From: Desulfosudis oleivorans
Lineage (GTDB): Bacteria; Desulfobacterota; Desulfobacteria; Desulfobacterales; SURF-7
NCBI GenBank assembly: GCA_020723305.1
Contig: DYJC01000003.1
Coordinates: 62,584-126,583, forward strand
Direction of reading: 5' to 3'
DNA: 64,000 nucleotides
The first letter of the stretch is position 1, and each line of letters opens with the position of its first letter. Of the stretch, positions 1-22,477 are shown in pieces. The notes beneath the pieces are model-generated. The model made no database searches and was not told the DNA's origin. It was given only the letters and a program-made list of their open reading frames with translations. Both the position numbers and the translations under genes were made by a program.

Positions 1-473
1 TGAAGCATGTTTTTGGCTTTCCGGACACGCAGGCTGGTTTCGTCATTCCCCCAGACCGAAATATGGATGTTGTAATCCACAGAGGGGGAGATCCGGGAGA
101 GACCATTGGAAGCAATGCAGCCCAGTGGAATCTCTTTGTAGCAGACTTCCAGGAGGGCCGGCACCAGCGATGGTTCGGCACCGGCAAGAACCACATAGGT
201 GATTCCCCGTTTTTTTTCATTTTTCATGAGTTCCTGCCAGAGCAGGGGATCTTGAATCTCTTCCGCAAACTGTTTGTCACCTTTAAAATAATAACACCCT
301 TCACACTGGATATTGCAATGGTTGGACATATCATAGGTGGATTCACGAAGAAAAAAGAATTTCCGGACTTTTTCCCATCTCTCATGAACAAACGGATCAG
401 CGATGATTTCGGAAAATTTCCATCTTTTATCCTCATTGTCCGGGCAAGAATTTTGTTTTTTGGCGGTCTCCAC
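1..473 (-). CDS. Radical SAM protein, 5' part only (gene leaves the window)
   Basis: About 157 codons of the N-terminal part are visible on the minus strand. After a 52-residue lead comes CX3CX2C (Cys53, Cys57, Cys60, in the context HCNIQCEGCYYF), the [4Fe-4S]/SAM loop of radical SAM enzymes. An aromatic residue after the third Cys and the later segment YVVLAGAEPSLVP (a GGEP-like SAM-binding stretch) agree with this. The start is taken as GTG at 473, preceded by AGAGGA; the frame is closed by a TGA around 520 and offers no ATG before the cluster. It follows an ACP gene by under 50 bp in the same direction, so it is read as a member of the lipid/polyene cluster. Substrate unknown; the C-terminal domain is outside the window. 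Confidence 0.82.
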   Translation of the reverse strand, partial: METAKKQNSCPDNEDKRWKFSEIIADPFVHERWEKVRKFFFLRESTYDMSNHCNIQCEGCYYFKGDKQFAEEIQDPLLWQELMKNEKKRGITYVVLAGAEPSLVPALLEVCYKEIPLGCIASNGLSRISPSVDYNIHISVWGNDETSLRVRKAKNML

Positions 474-520
474 TACAATCCGATCCTCTGCGTTATAAAC
501 AAATGTTAATCAAACCTTCC

Positions 521-784
521 TTACGAAAGCTGGTCTTTGATGTATTCAGCGATCAAACGGATGGTTGTGAGTTTGGGGTAATCGTCTTCATCAAATCGCA
601 TTCCATACTCATCCTGTAATACCAGAGCCACTGTGGCCAGGTCCATGCTATCAATACCGATCTCATCAACCAGATCAATGTCCGGATCGAACGTTCCCGG
701 AGTCACATCTTCCAGTTTGAGTTCTTCAATCATCACTTGGGCAACACGGGTAATAATATCGTTGGTGGTCATTTCAGCAGTCAT
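521..784 (-). CDS. Acyl carrier protein (ACP)
   Basis: An 87-residue acidic helical protein with the phosphopantetheine attachment motif GIDSMDL; Ser46 would carry the prosthetic arm. Length and pattern match type II ACPs. The start ATG at 784 has a GGGG run six bases upstream and lies inside the end of the dehydratase gene (overlap 774-784), implying translational coupling. It is one of five different ACPs in this cluster; the sequence after the serine (DLATVALVLQDEYG) differs clearly from the other four, which suggests that individual ACPs serve different partners rather than being simple copies. Which partner it serves cannot be told from sequence. Confidence 0.93.
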   Translation of the reverse strand: MTAEMTTNDIITRVAQVMIEELKLEDVTPGTFDPDIDLVDEIGIDSMDLATVALVLQDEYGMRFDEDDYPKLTTIRLIAEYIKDQLS

Positions 785-1142
785 TCTTTTCCCCTTCAGC
801 AGATATAATGCTTTTGCTTTTCAGTGTCATGACTCCCTGGCAGGCAGTCTCTCCCCTGACCTGAATCATAAACGAATAGGTATCCGGTTCTTTTTCACTC
901 CGGACAGCCTGTATTTCAAGCAGATCATCCGGCTTGATAATCTGTTTAAATTTTACTCTTTTGAATTCCTGGATGGAAATTTTTGTTGTGGCAGCCTGTT
1001 GAATCATATCCAATACAATCGAGAGCTGTGCAATGCCGGGGAGAATCGGATTGTCCGGGAAGTGCCCTGAGAACCAGAGAGAATTCCGGCTAAACTCCCG
1101 GGTTGAAAAAAAACGGTTCTGTGACATATGGGTGTCGGTCAT
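774..1142 (-). CDS. Hotdog-fold 3-hydroxyacyl-ACP dehydratase-like protein (FabZ/ApeI type)
   Basis: A 122-residue single-hotdog protein with the motif GHFPDNPILPGIAQL, the dehydratase signature containing the catalytic His region. It matches the variant used by aryl-polyene dehydratases (PG..QL) better than FabZ, where PG is followed by a catalytic Glu; that Glu position is Ser here, so catalysis must use another acidic residue (an Asp lies a few residues on) or be altered. Predicted role: dehydration of 3-hydroxyacyl-ACP during chain extension, in the cytoplasm. The gene overlaps the preceding ACP gene by ATGA and the following ACP gene by 11 bp, so it is tightly embedded in the ACP operon. 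Confidence 0.8.
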   Translation of the reverse strand: MTDTHMSQNRFFSTREFSRNSLWFSGHFPDNPILPGIAQLSIVLDMIQQAATTKISIQEFKRVKFKQIIKPDDLLEIQAVRSEKEPDTYSFMIQVRGETACQGVMTLKSKSIISAEGEKNDC

Positions 1143-1444
1143 TGTAACTGTCCTGCCGAAGAAGGCAATATGGAATCGGATGAGAGATTCTGAACAATAT
1201 GGTCAACAATATCCTGAATCGTGACAATTTTTTTCAGATCATCATCTTCGATTTCAATATCCATTTTCATTTCAATCATACCGGCGATATTAAATGCATC
1301 AATGCTGTCCAATTCAAGATCCTGGTATAAGTTTGTCTCCGGCAGAATTCTATCTTCTGAAATTTCAAACTCTTGTATGAAATAATTTTTCAGAAACAGA
1401 AAAATGTCATCGCTGCTTTTAACCTTTTGGTTCTTCGATTTCAC
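1139..1444 (-). CDS. Acyl carrier protein
   Basis: ACP with attachment motif ELDSIDAF (Ser47 if started at the GTG at 1444). I chose that GTG because TAGGA lies six bases upstream; starts at 1501 (ATG) and 1510 (TTG) are also open and would add an N-terminal tail of about 20 residues with no ACP-like character. The helix II region (IDAFNIAGMIEMKMDIEIEDDDL) is close to that of the next ACP upstream (1518-1799), so these two look like an old tandem duplication. Stop overlaps the start of the dehydratase gene (ATGA). Function: carrier of growing or modified acyl chains. Confidence 0.88.
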   Translation of the reverse strand: MKSKNQKVKSSDDIFLFLKNYFIQEFEISEDRILPETNLYQDLELDSIDAFNIAGMIEMKMDIEIEDDDLKKIVTIQDIVDHIVQNLSSDSILPSSAGQLQ

Positions 1445-1517
1445 GGGTATTCCTAAAAACATCAATGGATTGTTTCCATCCATCTGGAAATGTAACATCA
1501 TGGAATTCAAAGTATAT

Positions 1518-1799
1518 TCAGACCGTCACTTGCGAGTTCAGGTTTGGTTTATTTTGATTCGAAGTCTTCCGTATAATATACTCCACCACATCCTGAACCG
1601 TTATAATGGTTTTCAATTCTTTTTCATTGGTTTCAATATTCATTTCCGCTTCCAGCATCCCGACCATGTCCAGTGCATCAATGCTGTCGAGTTCAAGATC
1701 TTCAAACAGACTGGATTTTAAATCGATTTTTTTTTCCGGGATTTCAAATGTATCCACAAAATATTTTTTTACAAAAAGAAAAATATCATTCTTATCCAT
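1518..1799 (-). CDS. Acyl carrier protein
   Basis: A 93-residue ACP (from ATG 1799; a GTG at 1811 is an alternative) with motif ELDSIDALDMVGML, Ser39 being the phosphopantetheine site. Strong similarity in pattern to the ACP at 1139-1444 (both start near DIFLFxKxYF and share DLELDSIDA) points to tandem duplication and later divergence. It has a longer, Asn/Ser-rich C-terminal tail than usual. About 95 bp separate it from the deacetylase gene upstream, the largest gap in the left half of the cluster, so a secondary promoter there is possible though not evident. Confidence 0.9.
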   Translation of the reverse strand: MDKNDIFLFVKKYFVDTFEIPEKKIDLKSSLFEDLELDSIDALDMVGMLEAEMNIETNEKELKTIITVQDVVEYIIRKTSNQNKPNLNSQVTV

Positions 1800-1895
1800 G
1801 GTTCTTTTCACATCCTATTCAAATTTCATCATTCAGGATCAACTTGTCTATTTAATTTGTCATGATAAATATGTCAAGGAAATTGAATGCTTCTG

Positions 1896-2780
1896 TCAGG
1901 ATTCCGAAGCCGGACACACATAATGAGGAGCATCTGTAACTTTTCGAATTGACTTCATTACCGGCCGGTGAATCAGATCGGCAAGCGGGATGACTTCTAA
2001 TCCTTTCTTTTGGATGCCATTCACGATCTCTTCGATTTCAATCAGCCATCGTAACATCCATTGCTTTTTTTCTTTTGCCGGAACGATGTCATGCAGCAGA
2101 ACAATATCATTGGATTGGATTTTATGCAAAATTTTTCCAGACAGATTTTGAATTCTTCGATTCCCCATGTCAAAGGCACGGCAACTGTAATTTACACAAT
2201 ACATACCGAGTTTGGATAAGATATTTCCAAGTTTCGGATTGGTGATACCTGCCGGTGGCCGGAATGCAAGGGTATGAATTCCAAATATTTTCAATATGTC
2301 TTGCGTTCGCTGGATTTCCTGATACAGCTTTTTTGAACTTTTCAGCATGATCAGGGGGTCATGGTGATAGGAGTGATTTCCAATGGTATGGCCTTGCCGG
2401 AGGATATCCTGGATCAGATCCGGATGCCGGGAAGCATTTTCACCGGTTACAAAAAAAGTGGCCTTTATTTTTTTTTGGGCAAGCAGGTTTAGCAAAGCAG
2501 GAGTGGATAAAGGGTCCGGGCCGTCATCAAAGGTGAGGGAAACCGTTTTCTCTGAAGATTTTCCATGAGTAATGACCGGAAGAAAATAGCTTAAGCTGGT
2601 GAAAAATGGAGCAGTGAAACTGGCCAGCACAAAAAGGGATAGGGGGATCATGGAAAGACGGATGTCCCATACGGACAGCAGCAAAGCTGCGGAAAGCGAA
2701 GAGATTCCAAGAAGATGGGAAATTGTAACCCGGCTGACGTGAGCCGTATCGGTACTTGTATCCTCTTTCCTTGCATTCAT
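1896..2780 (-). CDS. Membrane-anchored polysaccharide deacetylase (NodB/CE4 family)
   Basis: The N-terminus has two to three hydrophobic helices (about residues 20-70) followed by a NodB homology domain with its ordered motifs: TFDDGPDP (Asp85, Asp86), a metal-site HSYHHDP, RPPAG and LLHD. All expected metal and catalytic residues are visible, so it should be an active metal-dependent deacetylase acting outside the inner membrane, either on N- or O-acetyl groups of a glycan or glycolipid. Its start overlaps the stop of the ketosynthase gene (ATGA), so it belongs to the cluster operon. A carbohydrate deacetylase in a fatty-acid cluster suggests that the product carries a sugar head group; that is inference. 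Confidence 0.9.
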   Translation of the reverse strand: MNARKEDTSTDTAHVSRVTISHLLGISSLSAALLLSVWDIRLSMIPLSLFVLASFTAPFFTSLSYFLPVITHGKSSEKTVSLTFDDGPDPLSTPALLNLLAQKKIKATFFVTGENASRHPDLIQDILRQGHTIGNHSYHHDPLIMLKSSKKLYQEIQRTQDILKIFGIHTLAFRPPAGITNPKLGNILSKLGMYCVNYSCRAFDMGNRRIQNLSGKILHKIQSNDIVLLHDIVPAKEKKQWMLRWLIEIEEIVNGIQKKGLEVIPLADLIHRPVMKSIRKVTDAPHYVCPASES

Positions 2781-4945
2781 GATTGAAAAATTTCAATAGC
2801 CGTTACAAAAGTTCCGGTCCCGATCAGTAAAATACCTTTGCCATCAAGCTCGATATCGTGTTCTCCGGAAAGCCTTGCCGGTATATGATTCAACTGGAGA
2901 AGCTTGATTCCTATAACCGCAGCAGTGGCAGATGCAGATGCATACTCACCAATCTGTTTGCGATAGTCAATAACCGGTTTATTGAACCGGGTCTGGTTCA
3001 GAAATTCCCGAAGCTGTTTTTCCCCGCATTCGCGAAGGGATGCCGGTATGCCGACCAGCAGGGCACCGAATTTCCGGCCGATCTGTTCAGGGCTGCCAAG
3101 GCTGCGGATCAATGCCTGGATAATATCCGGGTGGTGTTCGGCTCTTTCATAAAAACAGCAGGAGATGTTCATTCCCCTGGCAGTACCTGGGTGTTTCAGC
3201 AGCAGGGCGCCGCCGCCGTCTGAATTCTCACGGGAATTGGAAACCGATCCGTCAAACAGACCGGAAAGTTTTGTATGGTATTCATCCGCACCCATCACCA
3301 GAACAGATTCATCTGTATTGACCGGATGCAGCAGGCTGGCGGATAACAGGGCCTGCTCAAAGGAATAGTCTCCTCCGGTTGTGGTGATGTTGGCTCCTTT
3401 TGATTTCAGATACATGGCAACCTGTCCGGCGGCTGCATTGTGAACCGATCCGATAAAGTCGGTGGGGCTGGTAAATTTTTCGTTGGATTCAAATAGCTTT
3501 ATCAGAAAATCATAGGTTTCAGAAAGAGCGCCCCACCCGGTTCCCCAGAAAATGGATAAAGGAGACTGGAAAGAAATCGTATTTTTTTGCAGGGAATCCG
3601 CCAAAGCCAGGGCCATCTGTGGGAGACGCTTCAACCGCCGAATCAGTCTCGGCGGTAAATCTTCAGAAAGCGCTGCAAGGGGAAATACCCCGTTACAGTT
3701 TTCTCCATTCAGGAACCGGTTCAGGGTGGAGGTTGTTCCTCCGGCACCGGTAATACATTCGCAACCGATCACCTCAAGGGGGGATGTTTTTTTCAGGAGA
3801 ACCGGATTCCCGTTTCCTTTAACAGAGCGGATCACGACAGATGCATTGTTTCCGCCAAACCCGAACGAGTTGGATAAAACCGTATCCACCGGGTGTTCCA
3901 TCGGCGAAAGCACCGGCTGTAGGTTCGGTTTCGGGTCGGGTATGGTACATCCGGTATTGGCGGGAATGAGGTTCTGTTGAATACAGATCGTACAGATGAC
4001 GGCTTCAATCAGTCCGGCTGCGGCCAGGGGATGACCCATGGCTCCTTTGACCGAAGACAGGGGTGGTTTTTTTTCCGCAAAGATTTGGTTGACAGCCTTT
4101 GCTTCGGATAAATCATTATCCACGGTTCCGGTACCATGCAGATTGATATAGTCAATATCAGACGGTGAGAGCGAAGCATCTTCCAGGGCTTGCAGCATGG
4201 CATTCCGGGCGCCTTCACCTTCCGGATGCGGTGCGGTCGGGTGATATGCATCACAGGACAGCCCGGCGCCGAGGATTTCAGCACAGGCGGTTTCCGGTAC
4301 ACGCTCACCGGCTTCCAGAAGCAAGGCCGCAGCACCTTCGGAAACAGTCATGCCTTTACGATTCAGGTCAAACGGCCGTGCACCGGAAGGATCAATAAGC
4401 TGGAGTGAATGAAATCCAAAATAGGTGAATCGGCACAGGGAGTCTGATGCAATTGCCAGCACTTTTTTGGCCCTGCCGGATCGGATCAGCTCAAGAGCCA
4501 TTTTCAGGGCAGCCGTCCCGGAAGAGCAGGCTGTGGAAATCGTGATGACCGGGCCAAAGCATCTCAGTTGCCCGGCGATATAATCTGCAACAGAGCCTGC
4601 GGCGTGGTATTGGTATTTTTCAGGAGCGGTTTCATTTTTCCGCAGGAGTTCTTCTGTTACAGACATGCCTCCTGTGGAGGTCGCCATGACAATAGCGTCA
4701 ACCGTTCCCGGGTTGGTTTTCATCGCATCTGCTGCTGCAATCATGGCAAGACGGTGGGTTCGCGGGATATCATCATTAGGAAAAGATTGATTGACTTCTC
4801 CTGTGGGCAGGACGGTTTCGGAACGAAACAGCCGTAAAGGCCGGATTGTCGGATTACCGGTCCGGATAAAATCCTGTATCTCATGATATCCGGTTCCAAC
4901 GGGAGTGATGATCCCGATTCCGGTAATAAAGGTTCTGACCTTCAT
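2777..4945 (-). CDS. Fused ketosynthase plus chain-length-factor-like protein (KS-CLF)
   Basis: A 722-residue protein. Residues 1 to about 400 form a complete FabF-type ketosynthase: ITGIGIITPVG start, nucleophile STACSSG (Cys140), and the two His motifs LHGTGT and KGAMGHP. Residues about 405-722 resemble a second ketosynthase N-terminal fold (VLVMGADEYH, DGGGALLL), but where the active Cys should be the sequence reads TTTGGDYSFEQAL, with no Cys. A catalytic KS plus Cys-less partner is the KS/CLF heterodimer logic of aromatic and aryl-polyene systems, normally two genes. Here they are one chain with no internal stop. The ATG overlaps the ACP stop (TAATG). Predicted function: iterative condensation setting chain length. 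Confidence 0.88.
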   Translation of the reverse strand: MKVRTFITGIGIITPVGTGYHEIQDFIRTGNPTIRPLRLFRSETVLPTGEVNQSFPNDDIPRTHRLAMIAAADAMKTNPGTVDAIVMATSTGGMSVTEELLRKNETAPEKYQYHAAGSVADYIAGQLRCFGPVITISTACSSGTAALKMALELIRSGRAKKVLAIASDSLCRFTYFGFHSLQLIDPSGARPFDLNRKGMTVSEGAAALLLEAGERVPETACAEILGAGLSCDAYHPTAPHPEGEGARNAMLQALEDASLSPSDIDYINLHGTGTVDNDLSEAKAVNQIFAEKKPPLSSVKGAMGHPLAAAGLIEAVICTICIQQNLIPANTGCTIPDPKPNLQPVLSPMEHPVDTVLSNSFGFGGNNASVVIRSVKGNGNPVLLKKTSPLEVIGCECITGAGGTTSTLNRFLNGENCNGVFPLAALSEDLPPRLIRRLKRLPQMALALADSLQKNTISFQSPLSIFWGTGWGALSETYDFLIKLFESNEKFTSPTDFIGSVHNAAAGQVAMYLKSKGANITTTGGDYSFEQALLSASLLHPVNTDESVLVMGADEYHTKLSGLFDGSVSNSRENSDGGGALLLKHPGTARGMNISCCFYERAEHHPDIIQALIRSLGSPEQIGRKFGALLVGIPASLRECGEKQLREFLNQTRFNKPVIDYRKQIGEYASASATAAVIGIKLLQLNHIPARLSGEHDIELDGKGILLIGTGTFVTAIEIFQS

Positions 4946-5211
4946 TACTGGGAACTCTTTGAACGGTTTTGATCGATAAAGACGGCGAGCGTTCTCAGGG
5001 ATCTGAATACCTTCTCCCCGAGTTCTTTATTGTCAATAACCACGGAATAATCTTTTTCGATCATCATGACCAGTTCCAGCACATCGATGGAATCGATTCC
5101 GAGATCTCCTCCGACAAGCTGACCGTCAACATCAAAATCACCAGGGGTTACATCCATCAGGTTCAGGGTTTCAATCACTTTTTCTTTCAATTCATTCAGA
5201 AGGTTTTCCAT
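4945..5211 (-). CDS. Acyl carrier protein, first gene of the left operon
   Basis: An 88-residue ACP with GGDLGIDSIDVLEL; Ser41 is the phosphopantetheine site. AGGA lies six bases before the ATG. It heads the leftward operon and its stop overlaps the KS-CLF start (TAATG), so it is the most likely partner of the ketosynthase. Upstream (5212-5392) is AT-rich non-coding sequence that should hold the operon promoter; I see an AT-rich stretch around 5222-5240 but no confident -35/-10 pair. This is where the chromate-type operon now separates the two halves of the cluster. Confidence 0.93.
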   Translation of the reverse strand: MENLLNELKEKVIETLNLMDVTPGDFDVDGQLVGGDLGIDSIDVLELVMMIEKDYSVVIDNKELGEKVFRSLRTLAVFIDQNRSKSSQ

Positions 5212-5392
5212 TTTTCATCCTGTATATATAAAATATTTTAATTATTTGAATTCTGTTAGGCGGTTGAACAGATACCATATGAAAGTGTAATCTATCAATA
5301 TTTTTCTTACAGGTCATTTCCGGGTTGTGTGCAGTACCGGTATTGAATTTTTTTCTGCCTTGTAAAAAAGTCACATTTAAAAAAAGCACCCC

Positions 5393-5430
5393 TTGACAAC
5401 ATGTAACAACTGTTACATTATATATGTAAC
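5393..5430 (+). promoter_or_regulatory. Promoter with operator palindrome for the chrB operon
   Basis: TTGACA at 5393-5398, then 17 bp to CATTAT (5416-5421; shifted readings ATTATA or TTATAT are possible). The spacer contains a perfect inverted repeat at 5401-5418: ATGTAACA, AC, TGTTACAT. A further half-site TGTAACA follows at 5425-5431. A repressor bound here would cover the promoter. ChrB proteins are known to regulate chromate-inducible promoters and have a PaaX-like N-terminal part, so autoregulation by the adjacent ChrB is the natural guess. A GGAGA Shine-Dalgarno at 5440-5444 precedes the ATG at 5450. Confidence 0.75.
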
Positions 5431-5449
5431 AAATGACTTGGAGAACATT

Positions 5450-6424
5450 ATGAAGATCCCTGAATCTAAAAAATGGCTGTTGCTGATCCACCAGATTCCT
5501 CCAAAACCAAATGCCCTGCGTGTGAAGATCTGGCGGCGGCTACAACAGGTGGGAGCGGTGGCGATCAAACAATCGGTGTATGTGATGCCCCTCTCAGAAC
5601 AATCACGCGAAGATTTGAGCTGGACGCTCAAGGAGATTATTGAGGGCGGCGGGGATGGTTCCATTTTAGAGGCGCATTTTATGCAAGGTCTCTCGGACGA
5701 ACAGGTTCTTGCGTTGTTCCATAAAGCACGTAAATCCGACTATGAGAAGCTGATCCAGGAAACCAACGCCTTGCTTACCGAGTGGTCATCCAAAGAGAGC
5801 AATCCCCGGGACCCCGCCGTAAAGGGAACGGTTCAGTTATTCAGATTGAAGCACCGGTTGGACGAAATAGCGGCCATCGATTTTTTTCAGACGCCGGATC
5901 GCGCCACCGCGGAATTACAGCTCAGGGAATTGGAGAACCTTCTGTCCGGACAACCCCCAGCCGATAGTCCAGGCAGGGAGGGGATCAATGGTTTGATGGA
6001 TAAAACGTGGGTAACCCGCAGCAACCTTTTCGTTGACCGTATCGCCTGCGGCTGGCTGATTCGCCGATTCATCGACCAGGCAGCGGTATTCAAATTTGTT
6101 AGAGAACCAAACTATTCTCCCAAACCCGACGAGCTTTGTTTTGACATGTTCGATGGTGCATACACTCACGCGGGGGATCGATGCACCTTTGAGGTCATGG
6201 TTCAACGTCTCCGGCTTCCGGACCATGCATTGGTTCCCATGGCCGAAGTCGTTCATGAAATTGATTTAAAAGACGGGAAATTTGGTCGAAACGAAACCGA
6301 TGGGTTCAAGTCGCTTCTGACCGGTCTGGTGGCCATGCACCCGGATGATGACCAGCGGATGATAGAAGGGTTTCGCCTGTTTGATAATCTGTACGCCTAT
6401 TATCAGCAGCAAAAGAAGGTCTAA
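5450..6424 (+). CDS. chrB: ChrB-type chromate-resistance/regulatory protein
   Basis: 324 residues from the ATG at 5450, chosen over an upstream in-frame ATG (5393) because it has GGAGA five bases ahead and the protein family starts here (WLLLIHQIPPKPNALRVKIW). Residues 1 to about 150 match the ChrB N-terminal (PaaX-like) region with VGAVAIKQSVYVMP; residues about 184-324 match the ChrB C-terminal domain, starting TWVTRSNLFVDRIACGWLIR, with the Cys and the later H-E-D positions (VVHEIDLKD). Role by family: chromate-sensing regulator, possibly with a direct role in chromate handling. First gene of a rightward operon that continues to 12681. The DNA is visibly richer in G and C than the flanking lipid cluster. 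Confidence 0.9.
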   Translation: MKIPESKKWLLLIHQIPPKPNALRVKIWRRLQQVGAVAIKQSVYVMPLSEQSREDLSWTLKEIIEGGGDGSILEAHFMQGLSDEQVLALFHKARKSDYEKLIQETNALLTEWSSKESNPRDPAVKGTVQLFRLKHRLDEIAAIDFFQTPDRATAELQLRELENLLSGQPPADSPGREGINGLMDKTWVTRSNLFVDRIACGWLIRRFIDQAAVFKFVREPNYSPKPDELCFDMFDGAYTHAGDRCTFEVMVQRLRLPDHALVPMAEVVHEIDLKDGKFGRNETDGFKSLLTGLVAMHPDDDQRMIEGFRLFDNLYAYYQQQKKV

Positions 6425-6476
6425 TTTTATCAGGAAGGTCAAACTGGAAAACATTGTAACATAAAGGAGCTATCCC

Positions 6477-6761
6477 ATGCCATCTATTGAAAAACATGCC
6501 GATATCAGCAAACAAAGAACCGGAAAAACCTATCAACAAGTCCATGAATGGATAGATGATCCTCAGTACAAGGAGGAGCGCCATGACATTACCCGTGTAC
6601 TCGAGTTCAGCCAAATGTTCCGGGAGAAGTACGGCGAGGAAGCGGCACGGGAGTATGTGCAGCACCTGGCCGACGATCTCAGTGGCAAGTTCAACCACCT
6701 GGTCGAGGATGTCCAGGTGCTGGTGGACAAAACCCTGGCTTATTTCGGAGCCAAAAAATAA
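6477..6761 (+). CDS. Small helical protein of unknown function in the chr operon
   Basis: 94 residues, highly charged, no Cys, no signal peptide and no membrane segment. It is probably all-helical (VLEFSQMFREKYGEEAAREYVQHLADDL). A good ribosome site (AGGAG, 7 bases before the ATG) supports it as a real gene. It stands between chrB and a ChrB-C relic and only 52 bp after chrB, so it is likely co-transcribed. I do not recognise the family. The repeated acidic/aromatic heptad-like pattern would fit a small adaptor or a partner of ChrB, but nothing in the sequence proves it. Confidence 0.7.
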   Translation: MPSIEKHADISKQRTGKTYQQVHEWIDDPQYKEERHDITRVLEFSQMFREKYGEEAAREYVQHLADDLSGKFNHLVEDVQVLVDKTLAYFGAKK

Positions 6762-6774
6762 TAGGAGAATACCA

Positions 6775-6888
6775 ATGAAATGGGTGACCCGATCTCATTT
6801 TCATGTGGAAAATATCGAAAGACAGTTCGAGATCTACGACGCGCTATATGCCTGGTGCCGTCTGGATGTGGCTAAAGGGGAATCATAA
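6775..6888 (+). pseudogene. Internally deleted ChrB C-terminal-domain gene (relic)
   Basis: A 37-codon open frame with its own AGGAG ribosome site. It begins MKWVTRSHFHVE, which is how ChrB C-domain proteins start (KWVTRxHxHVDRxA), and ends EIYDALYAWCR, which is how they end, while the roughly 100 residues in between, with the catalytic or metal positions, are missing. The frame is kept across the join. I conclude that a ChrB-C gene (about 150 codons) lost its middle by an in-frame deletion. The identification rests on remembered family motifs at both ends; it is too short to fold as the parent domain. A functional ChrB C-domain is still present in the upstream chrB. Confidence 0.65.
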
Positions 6889-6899
6889 AGGAAATCGTC

Positions 6900-14172: not shown

Positions 14173-14775
14173 ATGAGACGATTTTTCTTTTTTAATATTG
14201 TGTTCGGATTTTTTTTCCTGTCTTCTGTATGGGCAGTTACACTGGAACAGATTCAGAAGGAGGCTGCGGGGGTTTTTTCTGTACGCGCTGAATTTATACA
14301 GGAAAAACATATGAAAATTCTGGCGAAACCGCTTGTCTCGACCGGTGTGATGCTTTTTAAAAGTCCGAAATCCGTTCGCTGGGAATATTTTCAGCCGGTA
14401 CGGAGCATCCTGATGATGGATAACGGCAGGGTGAAACGGTTTATCGAAGGGGAAAACGGGCTGGTGGAAGACCTTGGACCGGCAAAAGAGATCATGCAGT
14501 TTGTGCTTCAGGAGATCACATACTGGCTGAAAGGGGAGTTTGACAGCAGCTCCAATTTTACCACAAGTCTGAAGGGTGAACGAACCATTGTCATGACACC
14601 AAAGGAAGAATCTTTTTTAAAGGTTATTGAGCGGATTGAGTTGACGCTCTCGGATCAACCTGGGGTGATGGATCGCGTCCGGATCATTGAAACTCAGGAT
14701 ACCTATACCGAATACAGATTTCAGAAAACGATGGTCAACATTCCTCTTGCTGATGTCCTGTTCCGGAAGATCTGA
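14173..14775 (+). CDS. LolA-like outer-membrane carrier protein
   Basis: 200 residues from ATG 14173, chosen because it gives a clean signal peptide (RRFFFFNIVFGFFFLSSVWA); an upstream start would bury it. The mature part shows the LolA pattern: FIQEKHMKILAKPLVSTGVMLFKSPKSVRWEY, then alternating strands. Dedicated LolA paralogues occur in aryl-polyene clusters, where they are thought to help move the lipid-like product to the outer membrane. Periplasmic. The next gene, a lipoprotein, starts within the stop codon region (14775), so the two are coupled. Confidence 0.85.
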   Translation: MRRFFFFNIVFGFFFLSSVWAVTLEQIQKEAAGVFSVRAEFIQEKHMKILAKPLVSTGVMLFKSPKSVRWEYFQPVRSILMMDNGRVKRFIEGENGLVEDLGPAKEIMQFVLQEITYWLKGEFDSSSNFTTSLKGERTIVMTPKEESFLKVIERIELTLSDQPGVMDRVRIIETQDTYTEYRFQKTMVNIPLADVLFRKI

Positions 14776-15512: not shown

Positions 15513-16951
15513 GCCTGAAACAATTGATTCGAAAATCCGTGCAGGATTATCCTGGAAAGACAGCCATTGTCGAGGGTGATCATGCAGTCACCTATGACCA
15601 GTTGTACATCATCATAACCGAAATTGCTATGGATCTGAAATCAATCGGAATGGGAAGGGGAAGCCTGGTAGGGCTTCGGTTTCCAAACAGTATTGCCTAT
15701 GTGGCCATCACTTTCGCCATATGGGAGATCGAAGCCATTGTCGTTCCCATCGGCCTGGAATTGAAAAAAACCGAGGTTGGGGATCTATGCCATACCATGA
15801 AGCTGAACGCCGTGATTCAGGATCATGGCCCGGATCATGAGGTCCGGAAAAAAGGGCAAGGATTTCCCGTATCCTATTTTGTGGATCACCGATCCGCTGT
15901 GATCGAAAATCGATATATTGAAAAGGATATTGCCTTTATCCGGTTTACATCCGGTACAACCGGTGTATCAAAGGGGGTAGTTCTCAGTCACAGAGCCATC
16001 TGTGAGAGAATCGAAGCGGTAAATCAAACTCTTAGAATCAATGCAGATGATACCATCCTGTGGCTTTTGTCCATGGCGCACCACTTTGTTTCAACGATTC
16101 TTCTCTATCTTGCAAAAAGTGCCACAATCGTTATCGTGAATAAAATGTTTGCCGGATCGATTCTGGATGCGGCAAATCGGATGAAGGCAACCGTATTGTA
16201 CGCATCCCCGTTCCATTATTCCCTGCTGGCAGCCGATACTTCCGATAAAATGCTTTCAACTGTAAGGATCGCCCTGTCAACGACCATAGAGCTTCCGGAC
16301 AGTGTATTTCATCATTTTTATAAACGGTTCCGGTTGCCGGTTGTTCAGGCTTACGGAATTATCGAAATCGGGATTGTCTGTATGAATACGGAAGAGCCTG
16401 CCCGGAAAATCGGATCTGTGGGAAAACTGCTGCCGGCGTATGAGATGAAAGTGAAAAATACAGATTGCTATCCAGGTGAAAGCCATTTATGTGGAGAACT
16501 CTGGTTCCGGGGGCCGGGTTTTTTTGATGCCTATTTCAGTCCCTGGGCGGATGCGGATAAGATCATGGAAGACGGCTGGTTTGATACCGGTGATATCGGC
16601 TGGGTGGATACGGAAGGATATGTGTACCTGTTTGCCAGAAAAAAGGATGTCATCAATATCGCCGGGATGAAGGTATTTCCTCAGGAGATCGAGGCGGTAT
16701 TGAACATGCATCCGGATGTGGAAGAATCCTATGTATATGGATTGAAAGATAAACGGTTTGGGGAACTGGTGGCGGCTGATATTGTGCCAAAAGGGTCTTC
16801 GGAATCGATTTCAAGAAACAGGATTCTGCAATACTGCCGGCAACGGCTGGCTTCCTATAAAATTCCAGAGGAGATCAAGATCGTGGAGGCCATTCCAAAA
16901 ACAGCGGTGACCTCCAAGATCGTTCGAAGAAACAGATGGCGGAAAGAATAA
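15509..16951 (+). CDS. AMP-forming acyl/aryl ligase
   Basis: 480 residues, GTG start within the preceding stop (GTGA). It has all the ANL-family landmarks: P-loop FTSGTTGVSKG (147-156), YGIIEIG (the YGxTE equivalent with Ile), TGDIGW and, near the end, PKTAVTSKIVRR with the catalytic Lys. It would activate a carboxylic acid as acyl-AMP and load it on an ACP; a starter unit is the usual job in this cluster type. The small ACP immediately downstream (16959) is its most likely acceptor. Confidence 0.9.
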   Translation: MSLKQLIRKSVQDYPGKTAIVEGDHAVTYDQLYIIITEIAMDLKSIGMGRGSLVGLRFPNSIAYVAITFAIWEIEAIVVPIGLELKKTEVGDLCHTMKLNAVIQDHGPDHEVRKKGQGFPVSYFVDHRSAVIENRYIEKDIAFIRFTSGTTGVSKGVVLSHRAICERIEAVNQTLRINADDTILWLLSMAHHFVSTILLYLAKSATIVIVNKMFAGSILDAANRMKATVLYASPFHYSLLAADTSDKMLSTVRIALSTTIELPDSVFHHFYKRFRLPVVQAYGIIEIGIVCMNTEEPARKIGSVGKLLPAYEMKVKNTDCYPGESHLCGELWFRGPGFFDAYFSPWADADKIMEDGWFDTGDIGWVDTEGYVYLFARKKDVINIAGMKVFPQEIEAVLNMHPDVEESYVYGLKDKRFGELVAADIVPKGSSESISRNRILQYCRQRLASYKIPEEIKIVEAIPKTAVTSKIVRRNRWRKE

Positions 16952-16958: not shown

Positions 16959-17210
16959 ATGGTACAGATCGAACAAATAAAAGAACAGCTGATTTTTTTT
17001 CTGCATAATGAGATTTTTGATCCGTCCATTCAGATTAATGCGGACACGGATCTTCTTGAGTCGGGTTTTGATTCATTCTCTCTGGTGAAGCTTCTGGTGT
17101 TTATCGAAAAACAATACAGCCTTCAGGTTCCCGAAGATAAGCTGACCGAAGACACCCTGAGGAACGTCAACCGGTTATCAGAGATGATTTATGCTTTTCA
17201 AGAAAAATAA
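16959..17210 (+). CDS. Acyl carrier protein beside the ligase
   Basis: 83 residues with ESGFDSFSLVKLLVFIEKQY; Ser39 is the pantetheine site. The motif GFDSFSLV resembles carrier domains loaded by stand-alone ligases more than fatty-acid ACPs (GIDSID). It starts seven bases after the ligase stop and overlaps the acyltransferase gene by 20 bp (17191-17210), making ligase-carrier-acyltransferase a compact unit. Probable role: carrying the starter or a tailoring acyl group. Confidence 0.92.
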   Translation: MVQIEQIKEQLIFFLHNEIFDPSIQINADTDLLESGFDSFSLVKLLVFIEKQYSLQVPEDKLTEDTLRNVNRLSEMIYAFQEK

Positions 17211-18567
17211 ACGCATCAACCTCAATGGTATGGACTGCCTGTTGATGGCATTTGATTACCACATGAGAAAAAACGGATTTGCCGGAAATCTTGCGCAAAT
17301 GGTTCTGGGGCTTCCAATACAGATCCGTGAATCAGAGTTTGCCGACCGGATTTCCAGTCTGATGGATCAATTCCCGATTATTCATGCGGTCTCCAAACGG
17401 CATTTTTTTTCCCGGCTGCCCTGCTGGGAGATAAATCCGGAACAACCATCCGCTTTTCCCAGGATAACCGCATACCATCTGGAAGAAAAAACAGAAGAAA
17501 ATCCGGAATTCAAAACGCTCAGGAAGAAGCTGTTCAATCTTCCCCTTCAACCCGGAAAAGGAGAACAGATCCGGTTTGATCTTGTCTATTTTAACAAAGG
17601 GGGGATGGAAATCTATATGACCTGGGTTCACGCGCTCATGGATGCACATGGCGCCGAGTATTTTCTCTCCATGATCGGAAACCCGGATCTTGTGAAAGAA
17701 GCCCTGATATCGGAATCCAGCCGTATGGCTGCATCCGGCCGGGTAAATTCCGGATCGGATAATCATCCGAAGCCGAAAACAGGGAGTGCTGATGACAAAT
17801 GGAAGAAGGCAAAGCAATCCTTTGACCATATTGATGAGATCGCTTTGAATCCGCCGGTGTCCATATTGTCGAAGTTTCCGGAAAAAGCAAAACCTCTCCA
17901 AGAGTACACGATCATCTCTTTTTCACAAGAGGAAACAAAAATAATCCTGGACCTGGCGCGCAAACGGTGCGGTTTTTTTAATGAGTCCACTTATTTTGCC
18001 GCATCCACCATGCGTGAGCTGAAGCAGCTCTATCAAAAGAAGGGAGTAGCCTCCAACAATTATGTTTTGTCGCTACCGGTGAACCTTCGGAAAAAAGGAA
18101 CCCATCTTCCTGTTTTCTCAAACCAGTCAACATCCCTGTTGTATTCTTTTTCTTCAGAGAGCCTTGAGGATTTTGATTCAGCGGTCCGGCATTTTAAAGA
18201 GCAGACACAGCGTGTGATCAAAACAGGATTGCTGGATGCCAATGTTGCCGTGATGGAGATATCGAAATTTCTGCCCACCTGGTTTTATATCCGGAAAGTC
18301 CGGCAGGCCATGAAAGGTGAAATCGCCTCCATTGTGATGGCCAATCCAGGTACAATGTATTCCCGCCTGTCGGAATTCATAGGGACAAAAGTCGATTATG
18401 TCCGCCATATGCCGGCAATCATCGCTCCACCGGGAATCGGTGTCCTGTTTTATCAATTTGCAGGAAGATTGAATATCACCTTTGTGTATACGGAAGGAAT
18501 TCTTTCTCCGGAAGAAACAAACGGATTTCAGCTGGGGATACGAACCCATCTGCTGAATGGAAAGTGA
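17191..18567 (+). CDS. CAT/condensation-fold acyltransferase
   Basis: 458 residues. The motif WVHALMDAHGAEYFL (His147, Asp151) corresponds to HHxxxDG of CoA-dependent acyltransferases and NRPS condensation domains; the second His is replaced, but the catalytic His and structural Asp are kept. A second typical piece is IVMANPGTMYSRLSEFIG (the DFG/W-like region of this fold). No signal peptide. It probably transfers an acyl chain from one of the ACPs to an alcohol or amine acceptor. It overlaps the ACP gene upstream and is followed after three bases by a radical SAM gene. Confidence 0.72.
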   Translation: MLFKKNKRINLNGMDCLLMAFDYHMRKNGFAGNLAQMVLGLPIQIRESEFADRISSLMDQFPIIHAVSKRHFFSRLPCWEINPEQPSAFPRITAYHLEEKTEENPEFKTLRKKLFNLPLQPGKGEQIRFDLVYFNKGGMEIYMTWVHALMDAHGAEYFLSMIGNPDLVKEALISESSRMAASGRVNSGSDNHPKPKTGSADDKWKKAKQSFDHIDEIALNPPVSILSKFPEKAKPLQEYTIISFSQEETKIILDLARKRCGFFNESTYFAASTMRELKQLYQKKGVASNNYVLSLPVNLRKKGTHLPVFSNQSTSLLYSFSSESLEDFDSAVRHFKEQTQRVIKTGLLDANVAVMEISKFLPTWFYIRKVRQAMKGEIASIVMANPGTMYSRLSEFIGTKVDYVRHMPAIIAPPGIGVLFYQFAGRLNITFVYTEGILSPEETNGFQLGIRTHLLNGK

Positions 18568-18570
18568 GGA

Positions 18571-19977
18571 TTGTTGAAGATTCTGATCATTGCCATCAAT
18601 CAGGAGAAGTTTCCATTGGCTGTTGCCCCGATCGGAGCCGCCGGTATTGTCCGCATTCTGGAGCATCAGGGCCAGGATGTGCATTTTGTGGATCTTTGTT
18701 TTTCCGGCAACCTGAAACGGAATCTGGCCGGAGTATTAAAAAAGACAGATCCGGATATTGTCGGGCTTGCCATACGGAATCTCGACAACTGTTCCAGCAC
18801 CACCCAAAAAACATTTTTTCAGACCGCACGAAGTGTGATTCAAATTGTAAAGGAATATTCCAGCGCGACCATTATCATGGGAGGAGGCGGCGCGTCCGTA
18901 CTTCCGCAGGAACTGGCAGCCTATCTCCATGTGCCTTATACATTTATCGGAGAAGGCGAGGAAAGCCTTCCTGCTTTTCTCCGGGAGTATTCCGGGAAAA
19001 AGGATTTTTCAAAAATTCCGGGTCTTCTCTATCAGGAGAAGGAGACCTGGCATATGAACCCACCCGACTTTTCCGGAAATCTGGATCATTACCCCTTGTA
19101 TGCATATGAGAGAATCAACCATAAAAAGTATTTTGAACATGGCGGAATGATCGGATACCAGACCAAGAGGGGATGCCCTTTCGGATGTGTATATTGCAAT
19201 TACCGGACACTGGAAGGAACACGTCTGCGGTACCGGTCGCCTCAGCTTTGTGTGGATGATATGGAAAAGCTGGTCCGGGAAACCGGTTTTCGGGATTTCT
19301 TTTTCACAGACGGCGTTTTTAACTGGCCGCCGGATCATGCAATGAAAATCTGTGAGGAGATCATCCGGCGGAATCTGCAAATCCGGTGGATCGCCTATTG
19401 CAACCCGGCGGGTCTGGATGATGAGATGGCGCGGGTTTTTAAAGCTTCCGGTTGTGTGGGGATCGAGCTTGGGGTGGATGCGGTTACGGATAAAATGCTG
19501 GAAAACATGGGCAAAGGATTTACGCGTCAGGATATCCAGAAGAGCTATCAGGCACTTCTTCGCTCCGGAATTCCATTTGCAGTGTTTCTTCTTTTCGGAG
19601 GGCCGGATGAATCCTATCCGGATATGGTTGAAACCCAGAAATGCCTGATGGAGTTTGGAAAGGCGAATGCGGTTTTTGCATCTCTGGGTATAAGGATTTA
19701 CCGGGATGCTCCCATATACCGGATCGCAATCCGGGAAGGGATCATTACGCCGCAGACCAACCTCCTGAATCCGGTTTTTTATATCTCTCCAAAGCTGGGT
19801 GAAGATGCCATGGATCGACTGGACAGGCTTGCACGCCAGGAGGTTACCTGGAGCACTCCGACAGACTGGGATTCCTTTACCGTAAAATCGGTTCAGCGGA
19901 TCTTGAACCGGTTCCGGGTGATTCCGAACTGGAAAGATATTGAGGCATATGGCACCCATATGAGAAGAAAACGTTGA
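18571..19977 (+). CDS. B12-binding-domain radical SAM protein
   Basis: 468 residues, TTG start (18571 or 18574) directly after GTGAGGA. The first about 160 residues form a Rossmann-like B12-binding-type domain (APIGAAGIVRILEHQGQDVHFVDL, IMGGGGASVLPQELAAYL), without the DxHxxG base-off motif. The radical SAM loop is KRGCPFGCVYC (Cys202, Cys206, Cys209). This architecture includes methyltransferases, cyclases and oxidative decarboxylases. In this cluster it probably tailors the acyl chain. The TTGA overlap with the following FAD-oxidoreductase gene suggests equal expression. Confidence 0.87.
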   Translation: MLKILIIAINQEKFPLAVAPIGAAGIVRILEHQGQDVHFVDLCFSGNLKRNLAGVLKKTDPDIVGLAIRNLDNCSSTTQKTFFQTARSVIQIVKEYSSATIIMGGGGASVLPQELAAYLHVPYTFIGEGEESLPAFLREYSGKKDFSKIPGLLYQEKETWHMNPPDFSGNLDHYPLYAYERINHKKYFEHGGMIGYQTKRGCPFGCVYCNYRTLEGTRLRYRSPQLCVDDMEKLVRETGFRDFFFTDGVFNWPPDHAMKICEEIIRRNLQIRWIAYCNPAGLDDEMARVFKASGCVGIELGVDAVTDKMLENMGKGFTRQDIQKSYQALLRSGIPFAVFLLFGGPDESYPDMVETQKCLMEFGKANAVFASLGIRIYRDAPIYRIAIREGIITPQTNLLNPVFYISPKLGEDAMDRLDRLARQEVTWSTPTDWDSFTVKSVQRILNRFRVIPNWKDIEAYGTHMRRKR

Positions 19978-21194
19978 AACAGCATTATCATGTGGTTGTC
20001 GCCGGAGCAGGGCCTTCCGGCATTGCTGCGGCAGTCGCAGCTTCACGGAACGGATGCCGAACCCTTCTGCTGGAAAAAAACAGCTTTCCCGGCGGATTGG
20101 CGGCCATGGGAAAAATATCCACCATCTGCGGTTTGTATCATAATTCCGTAAAGCCGGCACCGGAATTGTTATATGACGGATTTCCACGGGAATTTGCAGC
20201 CAGGGTGATGTCGCTGGATCTGCTTTCCGGCCCTGTCCGGAGCGGGCGGGTTTTTGTTCTTCACTCCCGGCCTGGAATGATTGAGGCCGCTGCCAGGAAG
20301 TTTCTGGAGTCCACGAAAAATCTGGATGTTCACTACAGGGCGGAAATTTCCGGGCTGACCATGGACGGGAAACAGATCCGGCAGATTCAATTTTCAGTTT
20401 CCGGCCGGGAACAAGTTGTTCAGGCTGATGCGGTGATCGACAGTACCGGAGATGCCGTGATAGGTGAGATGGCCGGTGCATCTTTGCTGCTCCCGGATGA
20501 AACGGAGCAGGCGCCCGCGCTTCTGTTTTCAATAACTAATTTCGGGGATGCGTTTTCAGACCGGTCAGACATCATCCGGATACGGATGAAAATAAAGCAT
20601 GCTGTGGATTTGGGAGATCTGCCCCGGGGAACGGATGATGTCAGTTTTTCTCCTGACATCGGAGGTGGCTCGGCTTTCGTGAAGCTGAATCTCGGAGCCT
20701 TGATCTGTCCGGATCATGATGGAGCGGAATCCGGACTTGAGGAGAAAGCACAGGATATGAAAAAGCATCTGATTCATTTTTTACAGAAGAATGTTGGCGG
20801 CCTTGAGCATGTCCAAACCATCGGCCAATCCGGAACGGTTTTACACAGAGCCGGTAAGAGAGCGGAAGGATTATATCTCCTGACACGGGAAGATGTCTTA
20901 AACAATGCACAGTTTCCGGATGCAGTTGCAAGAGGGAACTGGCCTATTGAAAAGTATTCCTGTTCAGGGGCTCCCCGGTTTTCCTATCTTCCGGATGAAA
21001 CCGCGTATGACATTCCCGGGCGGTGTTTGCGTGTGTCCGGTATGGATAATCTCTTTACAGCCGGAAAGTGTATCAGCGCAGATGATGATGCCATTGCATC
21101 CGCCCGGGTGATCGGGTGCTGTCTTTCGACAGGAGAAGCTGCCGGAAACCTTGCCGGCCAATTTGTATCCAAAACAGATCGATCATGTCCATAA
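19974..21194 (+). CDS. FAD-dependent oxidoreductase
   Basis: 406 residues, TTG start overlapping the previous stop. The dinucleotide-binding motif VVVAGAGPSGIAAAVAASRNG (residues 8-28) and LLLEKNSFPGGLA are those of the FAD_oxidored family; a C-terminal GMDNLFTAGKCISADDDAIASARVIG completes the FAD site (GD motif variant). It most likely oxidises or reduces a carbon-carbon or carbon-oxygen bond in the lipid product. Position between two radical SAM genes, coupled to the first, indicates a shared tailoring step. In the candidate ladderane loci a flavin desaturase occupies a similar place, but this is a different flavoprotein family. Confidence 0.85.
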   Translation: MKQHYHVVVAGAGPSGIAAAVAASRNGCRTLLLEKNSFPGGLAAMGKISTICGLYHNSVKPAPELLYDGFPREFAARVMSLDLLSGPVRSGRVFVLHSRPGMIEAAARKFLESTKNLDVHYRAEISGLTMDGKQIRQIQFSVSGREQVVQADAVIDSTGDAVIGEMAGASLLLPDETEQAPALLFSITNFGDAFSDRSDIIRIRMKIKHAVDLGDLPRGTDDVSFSPDIGGGSAFVKLNLGALICPDHDGAESGLEEKAQDMKKHLIHFLQKNVGGLEHVQTIGQSGTVLHRAGKRAEGLYLLTREDVLNNAQFPDAVARGNWPIEKYSCSGAPRFSYLPDETAYDIPGRCLRVSGMDNLFTAGKCISADDDAIASARVIGCCLSTGEAAGNLAGQFVSKTDRSCP

Positions 21195-21214
21195 ACAACA
21201 ACGGGTGAAATACT

Positions 21215-22477
21215 ATGAAATTCAAACTGATTTATCCGCGTTGGTCCAAACTCTTTACACAGACGGAGTTTCATCTCCCTCCTCATGGGCCGGTGGTTTT
21301 TGCTGCATCCCTTCCCGAATATGTGGAAGTTGATTTTATCGATGAGAATCTTCAGGAGATCGATTTTGATGATCCGGTTGATTTTGTCGGCATATCCATG
21401 ATGCTGACCATACAGATAAAGCGAGGCTGGGAGATTGCCGATATCTACCGGAAAAAGGGAATCAAGGTGATATTCGGTGGGATTTCCACCATGCTGCATG
21501 CAGAGGAAACCATGAACCATGCGGATTCTGTTTTTCTGGGAGAAGCAGAAGGAAGGATGGAGGCTGTTTTTTCCGATTTTCAGAACAACCGGCTGAAAAA
21601 GAAGTATGACTACCTGGAAGATCATCCGCCGATCGAGATCGTTGGCACAGCCCGCCGGGACATCTTACAGAGAGATCTGTATAACTACCGGGGTATCCAG
21701 ATGGTGGATCTTTTCCACGCATCCCGGGGTTGCCGGTTCAACTGCTACCCCTGCGCCGTGGCTTATCTTGGGGGGAGGAAATTCAGGCCCCGGCCTATTG
21801 AAAAGTCGATTCAGGAACTGGAGAGTATTGACAACAATCGTCTATTTATCGTGGATAACTCGCTTGCGCAGGATGAAGAGTGGGAAAAGGATCTGTTCCG
21901 CGAGATGATCCCCCTGAAAAAGAAGTGGTGCAGCCATCCGATCCAGGATAAACCGGAAGTACTGGATCTGGCAGCTCAGGCAGGGGCATGGTATGTCTAC
22001 CAGGCGGTTTTCGATACATCGGACTACATCCGGGAGCGGATCAAACGGTATCATGACCATGGGATTCTGGTGGAGGGAACCATACTCCTTGGTATGGACA
22101 ATCACACGGAAGAGGATATCAAACGGCTGATCGATTTTCTGCTTGAAATCCAACTGGATCTGGCTGAATTTACCGTACTGACGCCCTTTCCTCATACACC
22201 GGCCTTCCGGGAGCTTCACCAGGACAAACGGATTCTTTCCTATGACTGGGATGATTATTCAGCGGACAAGGTGGTGTTTCAGCCCAAACATATGGCCCCG
22301 GAAAAGCTTCAGGAATTATTGAAGTATGCGTGGGACACGTTTTATCATGACGAACCGCAGCCGGTGAAGATGTTCAAGCTGTTTCAGCATGTGATCGAAA
22401 AGGAGAAGGCGGACAACACCTATCGCCCCAGGAAAAGAGATCTCGCCAACTATGCATTCGGCAAGAAAATCCGGTGA
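21215..22477 (+). CDS. B12-binding-domain radical SAM protein (second)
   Basis: 420 residues. N-terminal Rossmann-type domain (about 1-130, VDFVGISMMLTIQIKRGWEIADIYRKKG, VIFGGISTMLH), then SRGCRFNCYPC (Cys173, Cys177, Cys180) and a TIM-barrel half. Clearly different from the protein at 18571 (different lead, different spacing), so not a recent duplicate. The ATG lies 20 bp after the oxidoreductase gene. It ends the cluster; its last 162 bases overlap in antisense with an AbrB-type gene. Reaction unknown; likely C-C bond formation or methylation in the lipid chain. Confidence 0.87.
   Translation: MKFKLIYPRWSKLFTQTEFHLPPHGPVVFAASLPEYVEVDFIDENLQEIDFDDPVDFVGISMMLTIQIKRGWEIADIYRKKGIKVIFGGISTMLHAEETMNHADSVFLGEAEGRMEAVFSDFQNNRLKKKYDYLEDHPPIEIVGTARRDILQRDLYNYRGIQMVDLFHASRGCRFNCYPCAVAYLGGRKFRPRPIEKSIQELESIDNNRLFIVDNSLAQDEEWEKDLFREMIPLKKKWCSHPIQDKPEVLDLAAQAGAWYVYQAVFDTSDYIRERIKRYHDHGILVEGTILLGMDNHTEEDIKRLIDFLLEIQLDLAEFTVLTPFPHTPAFRELHQDKRILSYDWDDYSADKVVFQPKHMAPEKLQELLKYAWDTFYHDEPQPVKMFKLFQHVIEKEKADNTYRPRKRDLANYAFGKKIR

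Follow-up and report, generated by a model that had tools for sequence, protein, structure and literature searches.

Results

The cluster and its interruption

The stretch of DNA analysed here, hereafter the window, comprises 64,000 nucleotides of Desulfosudis oleivorans (GenBank assembly GCA_020723305.1, contig DYJC01000003.1, positions 62,584 to 126,583; G000:C1:62584-126583 in our numbering; the assembly has 5.4 Mb in 47 contigs). It contains most of a lipid-type gene cluster that is interrupted by a chromate operon, and we describe the gene content of this cluster, its relatedness to known loci, the insertion and a second locus elsewhere in the genome. The cluster extends from -8562, some 8.6 kb outside the left edge of the window, to 22.5 kb and has 26 genes, ten of them on the right side, among which are five acyl carrier proteins (ACPs) and five radical S-adenosylmethionine (SAM) proteins, designated A to E (Table 1). 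Beyond the left edge of the window the minus-strand half continues with the rest of radical SAM A and with radical SAM B (332 amino acids), followed further left by two FabF-type ketosynthases (KS2 and KS3), a 4HBT thioesterase, a PS-DH-domain protein and a PlsY-like protein. The leftmost genes encode the B12 radical SAM C, for which the best model was HpnR (248.8 bits; cut-off 650), and a BtrH/DarH-like protein, after which an aconitase flanks the cluster. The Cys-His-His motifs are retained in KS2, KS3 and the ketosynthase half of a fused ketosynthase-chain-length factor (KS-CLF), the chain-length factor (CLF) half of which matches PF13723; there is no enoyl reductase in the cluster.

A first-pass annotation of the window had listed five ACPs, a KS-CLF, dehydratases, a reductase, a ligase, a LolA-like protein, a deacetylase and an FAD oxidoreductase, all of which were located, together with three radical SAM proteins, which are indeed the number in the window out of five in the whole cluster. 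Its expectation that the cluster reached past the left edge proved correct, as minus-strand genes were traced to -8562. The acyltransferase and DUF3261-like calls stand as genes, although their labels are weak: Pfam searches returned zero matches for the window protein at 17191-18567 and for that at 14775-15512. Condensation was matched by one of six homologues of the former (2.3e-7), while DUF3261 was matched by three of 14 homologues of the latter (window protein included; best E 0.0017). In a sequence search against solved structures the acyltransferase gave a single match (E 0.52).

The chromate operon encodes ChrB, a small protein, an MFS protein, a phosphoenolpyruvate (PEP)-synthase-like protein, a ChrA-like protein and a rhodanese-HD protein. 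The first-pass annotation had proposed that this operon splits what is a single cluster and, consistent with that proposal, the two halves lie back to back, without the operon, in a genome of the same genus (G001) and in one of the same family (G007), where the gap between the matches to ACP1 and the second dehydratase (DH2) is ~260 and ~235 bases, respectively. All 26 cluster genes are present in G001 (63-93% identity). The G007 contig starts inside the FAD oxidoreductase gene and the stretch stops inside the PlsY-like gene, with the intervening genes present (50-90%), while G002 and G003 contain part of the right half (82-97%) on short contigs. ACP1 and DH2 are divergent neighbours at eight more loci (G354, G145, G189, G392, G072, G326, G286 and G191). 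The D. oleivorans sequence aligns with that of G001 until ~5364 and resumes at ~12761, indicating that ~7.4 kb has been inserted. The left edge of the insertion lies within a box, TTGTATTA, that is common to G001 and G007 and would be a piece of the promoter of the right half, whose transcription may now proceed from within the chromate operon. The break looks recent. The best relatives of the PEP-synthase-like protein are in G006 (81%, on another contig), G037 (66%) and G002 (45%), versus 32% identity in G001, with some relative at 1e-60 in 28 of 40 genomes, a pattern that fits an acquired operon. Within the operon, the PEP-synthase-like protein (window 8214-11360; 1048 amino acids) is spanned by PEP-synthase models over residues 118-562, roughly its N-terminal half, and the ChrA-like protein, at 137 amino acids versus the 178-180 positions of short ChrA/ChrB models, may be truncated.

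Table 1. Features of the cluster and of its surroundings in the window (window coordinates)
Feature	Position	Strand	Remark
Radical SAM A, 366 amino acids	1..473, seen as 3-473, on to -627	-	cut by window edge
ACP4 (PP-binding)	521..784	-	present at 21/22 loci
ApeI/FabZ-type dehydratase DH1	774..1142	-	
ACP3 (PP-binding)	1139..1510	-	
ACP2 (PP-binding)	1518..1811	-	
Polysaccharide deacetylase	1896..2780	-	
Fused KS-CLF, 722 amino acids	2777..4945	-	Cys-His-His motifs intact in KS half
ACP1 (PP-binding)	4945..5211	-	
Inserted chromate operon	5365..12760	.	edges from comparison with G001
ChrB	5393-6424		
ChrA-like protein, short	11379-11792		below NCBIfam cut-off
ChrE-like rhodanese-HD protein	11815-12681		below NCBIfam cut-off
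ApeP-type dehydratase DH2	12834..13271	+	
Ketoreductase, FabG type	13268..14050	+	
LolA-like protein	14128..14775	+	
DUF3261-like protein (weak)	14775..15512	+	
AMP ligase	15509..16951	+	cassette
ACP5 (PP-binding)	16959..17210	+	cassette
Condensation-superfamily acyltransferase	17191..18567	+	cassette
B12 radical SAM D, family TIGR04072	18571..19977	+	cassette
FAD_oxidored flavoprotein	19974..21194	+	cassette
B12 radical SAM E	21215..22477	+	
DAK2 + DegV fusion, FakA/FakB-like kinase	36193..37944	-	in relatives, homologues within or close to the cluster
Thioesterase-like protein by kinase	37904..38353	-	called by eye and from a thioesterase-like neighbour in G001

A conserved core and a movable cassette

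When 395 genomes of the same phylum were searched with radical SAM B (alignment A1; threshold 1e-20), 29 gave matches, of which 28 were strong (587-783 bits, own genome included) and one, in G076, was weak. Each of the 28 strong genomes displayed a second, weaker match nearby, which corresponds to radical SAM A. Our own genome aside, there were 27 strong genomes, and flanks were retrieved for 19 of them (G174, G227, G284, G334, G364, G400, G421 and G429 being left out), and also for G001, G007, G006, G012 and the weak G076. Genes were then counted at 22 loci from 21 genomes, G001 and G007 included, with G140 contributing two loci; the 0.6/0.8 coverage and identity thresholds were chosen after inspection of the data, and contig ends or the frame of the stretch fetched truncate several of the loci.

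These counts reveal a conserved core, a new finding, that comprises radical SAM A and B, the two ketosynthases KS2 and KS3, the thioesterase, the PS-DH protein and ACP4. Radical SAM B occurs at all 22 loci, radical SAM A, KS2, KS3, the thioesterase and the PS-DH protein at the same 21, and ACP4 at 21, with all seven genes together at 20. Other genes are present less often: ACP1 and the first dehydratase (DH1) at 18 loci each, a TIGR04072-like radical SAM D at 15, the reductase and DH2 at 14 each, the deacetylase at 13, KS-CLF and radical SAM E at 12 each, the LolA and DUF3261-like genes at 11 each, the PlsY-like gene at ten, and radical SAM C with the BtrH-like protein at one (G001). The two core radical SAM proteins, A and B, are paralogous to each other (27.8% identity), and each contains a CxxxCxxC motif and further cysteines near the C terminus that are invariant in 16 aligned A sequences (A5, own copy left out) and 21 aligned B sequences (A6). 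In the search against solved structures radical SAM B gave generic radical SAM matches (best 2.5e-5 over 62 residues) and KS-CLF ordinary ketosynthase matches.

The set formed by the ligase, ACP5, acyltransferase, radical SAM D and FAD oxidoreductase genes is found at only two of the 22 loci (G001 and G007). G006 and G012 also have this five-gene set, in 60-kb stretches that lack the core, which marks it as a movable cassette, likewise a new finding. In the cassette-less G354, G145, G392, G072, G326 and G097 radical SAM E adjoins the DUF3261-like gene. On contig G012:C35 (L035-L037) there is an extensive aryl-polyene-like locus that encodes radical SAM E (62%), a lyase-like protein (34%) and two TIGR04072-like proteins, with no radical SAM A or B in 60 kb.

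Aryl-polyene-type components and a second locus

Proteins of the aryl-polyene (APE) cluster of Escherichia coli CFT073 and of a plasmid locus of Roseomonas haemaphysalidis were compared, at an E value of 0.01, with the stretch between -18.6 and 28 kb. The Roseomonas reference came from a plasmid search with KS-CLF, in which none of 630 records covered 80% of the query at a single location. These queries matched the ketosynthase, CLF, reductase, both dehydratases, ACPs, the thioesterase, LolA (by the Roseomonas query only) and the deacetylase.

Most of the APE genes missing from the cluster sit together on contig 7. There, a single run (G000:C7:19865-28610) encodes an ApeJ-like glycosyltransferase, an ammonia-lyase of the aromatic type that has an ASGD motif and scores above its Pfam cut-off, an LPLAT-type acyltransferase, an ApeR-like ketosynthase, an MMPL protein whose end is methyltransferase-like and, finally, an LpxL-like acyltransferase. 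A run identical in content is present on G001:C12. In G191 the lyase, a fused DAK2-DegV kinase, a glycosyltransferase and MMPL adjoin the core, the lyase lying within ~0.6 kb of DH1 and the core, and in G187 the same four genes accompany radical SAM E, which the lyase directly adjoins. Homologues of the DAK2-DegV kinase of the window are present in ten of 25 other stretches searched. A methyltransferase-like end was seen in the MMPL proteins at L072:9511-12618 (clear) and L194:4572-7667 (weak); such proteins are perhaps fusions of ApeM- and ApeB-type functions.

Ketosynthase phylogeny

Two ketosynthase trees were built, the first with 61 rows and the second with 56, after seven long-branched rows had been dropped and two contig-7-type ketosynthases added. 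The KS half of KS-CLF forms one group with E. coli ApeO and the Roseomonas ketosynthase in both (93/70 and 99/91, respectively). In the first tree a single clade unites KS2 with KS3 (100/100), the anammox ketosynthases being placed elsewhere; in the second the contig-7 ketosynthase pairs with E. coli ApeR (100/100), and the wider ApeO/KS-CLF clade has four anammox ketosynthases as its weakly supported sister group (86/85). Thus, the aryl-polyene-type parts claimed by the first-pass annotation are borne out by the APE and Roseomonas matches and by the trees, and of the comparison it suggested with aryl-polyene and ladderane ketosynthases the aryl-polyene side holds, through the grouping with ApeO, while on the ladderane side there is only the weak sister placement, the anammox sequences being otherwise apart.

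Discussion

A proposed lipid pathway

The data presented here make it likely that most of an aryl-polyene-type lipid pathway (type II, with a KS-CLF) is encoded by the cluster, the product probably being an unsaturated, pigment-like lipid of the outer envelope. This product, every reaction and the cooperation between the two loci are what we infer, as follows. The ammonia-lyase of contig 7 would supply an aromatic acid, which an AMP ligase would activate onto an ACP, and the ApeR-type ketosynthase of contig 7 would initiate the chain. The fused KS-CLF, the ketoreductase and the two dehydratases would then elongate the chain to a conjugated polyene, with no enoyl reductase in the cluster. The thioesterase, the FakAB-like kinase and the PlsY-like or other acyltransferases would attach the chain to a glycerolipid or glycolipid. 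PlsY uses acyl-phosphate as its substrate, and thus thioesterase, kinase and PlsY-like protein could together pass the chain to glycerol-3-phosphate. Transport to the outer membrane would fall to MMPL, LolA and the DUF3261-like protein. The core, in which radical SAM A and B are joined by KS2, KS3, ACP4, the thioesterase and the PS-DH protein, may make or modify a second chain or the head group through radical chemistry, and in this lineage the five-gene cassette would contribute a reaction of B12 radical SAM and flavin type at a carrier-bound acid. In our genome the chromate operon separates the halves and breaks the conserved box upstream of the right half. The first-pass annotation envisaged an outer-membrane-directed lipid, probably with a sugar; both elements are plausible, the former from LolA and the DUF3261-like protein here and MMPL on contig 7, the latter from the ApeJ-like glycosyltransferase of contig 7 and the deacetylase here.

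It should be emphasized that several observations weigh against the pathway proposed above. Among the E. coli queries, ApeH, ApeM, ApeJ, ApeD, ApeB, ApeG, ApeN and ApeL had zero matches from -18.6 to 28 kb (E 0.01). ApeH is the 4-hydroxybenzoate ligase, and this negative covers that region, the rest of the genome not having been searched for it; the AMP ligase of the cluster differs from ApeH, and because ApeH was not found the cluster is filed as a variant and not as a plain APE member. The link between contig 7 and the cluster rests, in our own genome, on gene content and not on linkage, and the lyase and other contig-7 proteins run through NCBIfam fall below its cut-offs. The lyase family PF00221 occurs in just ten of 22 core genomes and also in five of 14 control genomes, so that its presence alone is no proof. 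KS-CLF is visible at just 12 of the 22 loci in the stretch fetched. Of the transport set, LolA was found, DUF3261 is weak (three of 14 homologues) and MMPL is on contig 7 only. Finally, support for the key fork of the first tree is low (93/70), and long-branch warnings apply to both trees, including one for ApeO with the Roseomonas ketosynthase.

It is conceivable, though we think the odds lean the other way, that the core, with its paired radical SAM proteins that each have a second invariant cysteine set, is an undescribed radical lipid-modifying unit, which performs a C-H or C-C bond step on an ACP-bound chain and couples the modified chain to an aryl-polyene-type chain, and that the resulting lipid class lies behind some of the unexplained 'ladderane' calls made outside anammox bacteria.

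Alternative explanations

It could be argued that the same machinery makes a polyene lipid from a non-aromatic starter, a fatty or other acid that enters, for example, via the ligase and ACP5, and that the lyase serves elsewhere. The lack of a PF00221 lyase in 12 of the 22 core genomes, the lack of an ApeH counterpart from -18.6 to 28 kb and the ligase and ACP that the cassette brings with it are all in keeping with such a route. However, the proximity of the lyase to DH1 and the core in G191 (within ~0.6 kb) and to radical SAM E in G187, and its place on contig 7 in one run with the ApeR-like ketosynthase and MMPL, argue for an aromatic starter, and we therefore regard the non-aromatic route as unlikely, if the most serious of the alternatives.

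An anaerobic pathway to polyunsaturated fatty acids or hydrocarbons, as Rattray and others proposed for Desulfotalea psychrophila, Geobacter and Pelobacter, is improbable. That work (PMC2649909) reports radical SAM and type II fatty acid synthesis (FASII) genes together in these bacteria, and C31 polyunsaturated hydrocarbons in D. psychrophila. In G097, as in the loci described there, a flavoprotein of the Amino_oxidase type adjoins KS-CLF (L082:8697-10178). Against this, the flavoprotein of our cluster is an FAD_oxidored, with no Amino_oxidase match at 0.001 that would make it phytoene-dehydrogenase-like and with only 21 bits over 38 residues to the crtI family, and LolA, the DUF3261-like protein and, elsewhere, the MMPL and glycosyltransferase genes suggest an exported lipid.

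The first-pass annotation also likened the cluster to the candidate ladderane loci of anammox bacteria. Several radical SAM proteins within a FASII-type cluster do recall them, and radical SAM D is a member of TIGR04072, although barely above its cut-off (362.1-362.6 versus 360 bits). The Amx820 probe gave ten stretches, and the comparison used six of their genomes, all anammox-type: five with Brocadia or Kuenenia titles and 'Planctomycetia bacterium H5_AMX3', with no K. stuttgartiensis and no Scalindua. None of the six contained a close radical SAM A or B at 1e-20; the best radical SAM B matches there were partial, at 50.9-60.4 bits versus 587-783 in its own phylum, and tblastn gave one match of 67 bits (26% identity over 94%). 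TIGR04072 relatives are present in all six at 1e-40, whereas only one, Brocadia carolinensis, exceeds the cut-off, and none of 14 control genomes does. The B. carolinensis member has genes for a ketosynthase, a reductase, an ACP and a radical-SAM-E-like protein around it. In B. pituitae and K. hertensis, the loci of which, found by ketosynthase likeness, we take for the anammox FASII loci of the literature, radical-SAM-E-like proteins occur at four places (28-30% identity) and the ketosynthases are 23-38% identical to ours.

The likeness to the anammox loci is thus general and not close, its common ground being the TIGR04072 family and a general ketosynthase likeness. The weak sister placement of the anammox ketosynthases (86/85) leaves some room for kinship. 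The pathway to which kinship is claimed is, moreover, itself unproven, as expression of the anammox candidates in E. coli failed to produce ladderanes, although few of the candidates were detected as soluble proteins (PMC4790861). With no orthologous radical SAM A or B, the best B match among the six genomes reaching 60.4 bits, and with ketosynthases mostly in other clades, kinship to the anammox pathway is not borne out, and we consider a ladderane or other ring-bearing lipid very improbable. Two observations were made in passing: the B. carolinensis locus (G450:C42; L155-L156), with a TIGR04072 member of 437 bits, is aryl-polyene-like, and four of 294 Planctomycetota genomes have mid-level relatives of radical SAM B (213-227 bits; L203-L206).

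That the two halves are unrelated gene sets which flank the chromate operon by chance has next to nothing in its favour, for although the cassettes of G006 and G012, which stand without the core, show that parts can move, the divergent, adjacent halves of G001 and G007 rule out independent location as far as the arrangement is concerned, and eight further loci keep ACP1 and DH2 as divergent neighbours.

Relation to known systems

The aryl-polyene-type pathway favoured here resembles the APE clusters, exemplified by apeA-R of E. coli CFT073 (PMC8253772), in its ketosynthase and CLF, ketoreductase, two dehydratases, ACPs, thioesterase, LolA and DUF3261-like proteins and, on contig 7, in the ApeR-type ketosynthase, MMPL and ApeJ/ApeD-like proteins. 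It differs in the fused KS-CLF, the ApeH that was not found, the contig-7 ammonia-lyase, the five radical SAM proteins, the extra ketosynthase pair, the PS-DH and PlsY-like proteins and the distribution over two separate loci. The features that set it apart from the known kind are, in particular, the paired radical SAM/ketosynthase core, the B12 radical SAM cassette and, probably, the second locus. The locus on the Roseomonas haemaphysalidis plasmid p546-1 (L185) likewise has an aryl-polyene-like set, including a polysaccharide deacetylase; in contrast, its KS and CLF are separate and no radical SAM protein is annotated in the 28.9 kb shown.

The anammox FASII loci proposed for ladderanes (PMC2649909) share with the cluster the combination of FASII and radical SAM genes and a distant likeness, but have no close radical SAM A or B and ketosynthases mostly in other clades; the loci compared were those of Brocadia and Kuenenia hertensis found by ketosynthase likeness and not those of K. 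stuttgartiensis. The D. psychrophila, Geobacter and Pelobacter clusters with FASII and radical SAM genes (same source) and the Desulfobacterota and other 'ladderane' clusters of PMC9902471, likened here by the descriptions in these papers, are probably of an overlapping kind. Literature searches that joined the topics of the cluster with Geobacter or Desulfobacterota returned nothing beyond PMC2649909, a result from which it does not follow that clusters of this type have gone undescribed. Models from flexirubin clusters were the best or near-best for the reductase and LolA, all below cut-off: FlxA scored 326.8 versus 700 (contig-7 lyase), FlxB 300.5 versus 340, LolA2_flexi 95.6 versus 125 and DarH 149.1 versus 300. 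Membership of the flexirubin family is not supported by these scores.

According to PMC9902471, 'ladderane' clusters from many non-anammox bacteria of anoxic water have been left without a function. If these clusters are of the same kind, they acquire a testable reading as pathways to an aryl-polyene-type envelope lipid, one that would name the elongating ketosynthase, the initiating ketosynthase, the exporter and a possible starter enzyme. This study also isolates, by comparison, a small conserved radical SAM/ketosynthase core, and indicates that TIGR04072, although named for ladderanes, is no sole indicator of them. As regards the organism itself, proteins that by eye resemble cytochrome c oxidase subunits are encoded ~12 kb to the left of the cluster (L003:2061-4299), and thus it need not be a strict anaerobe.

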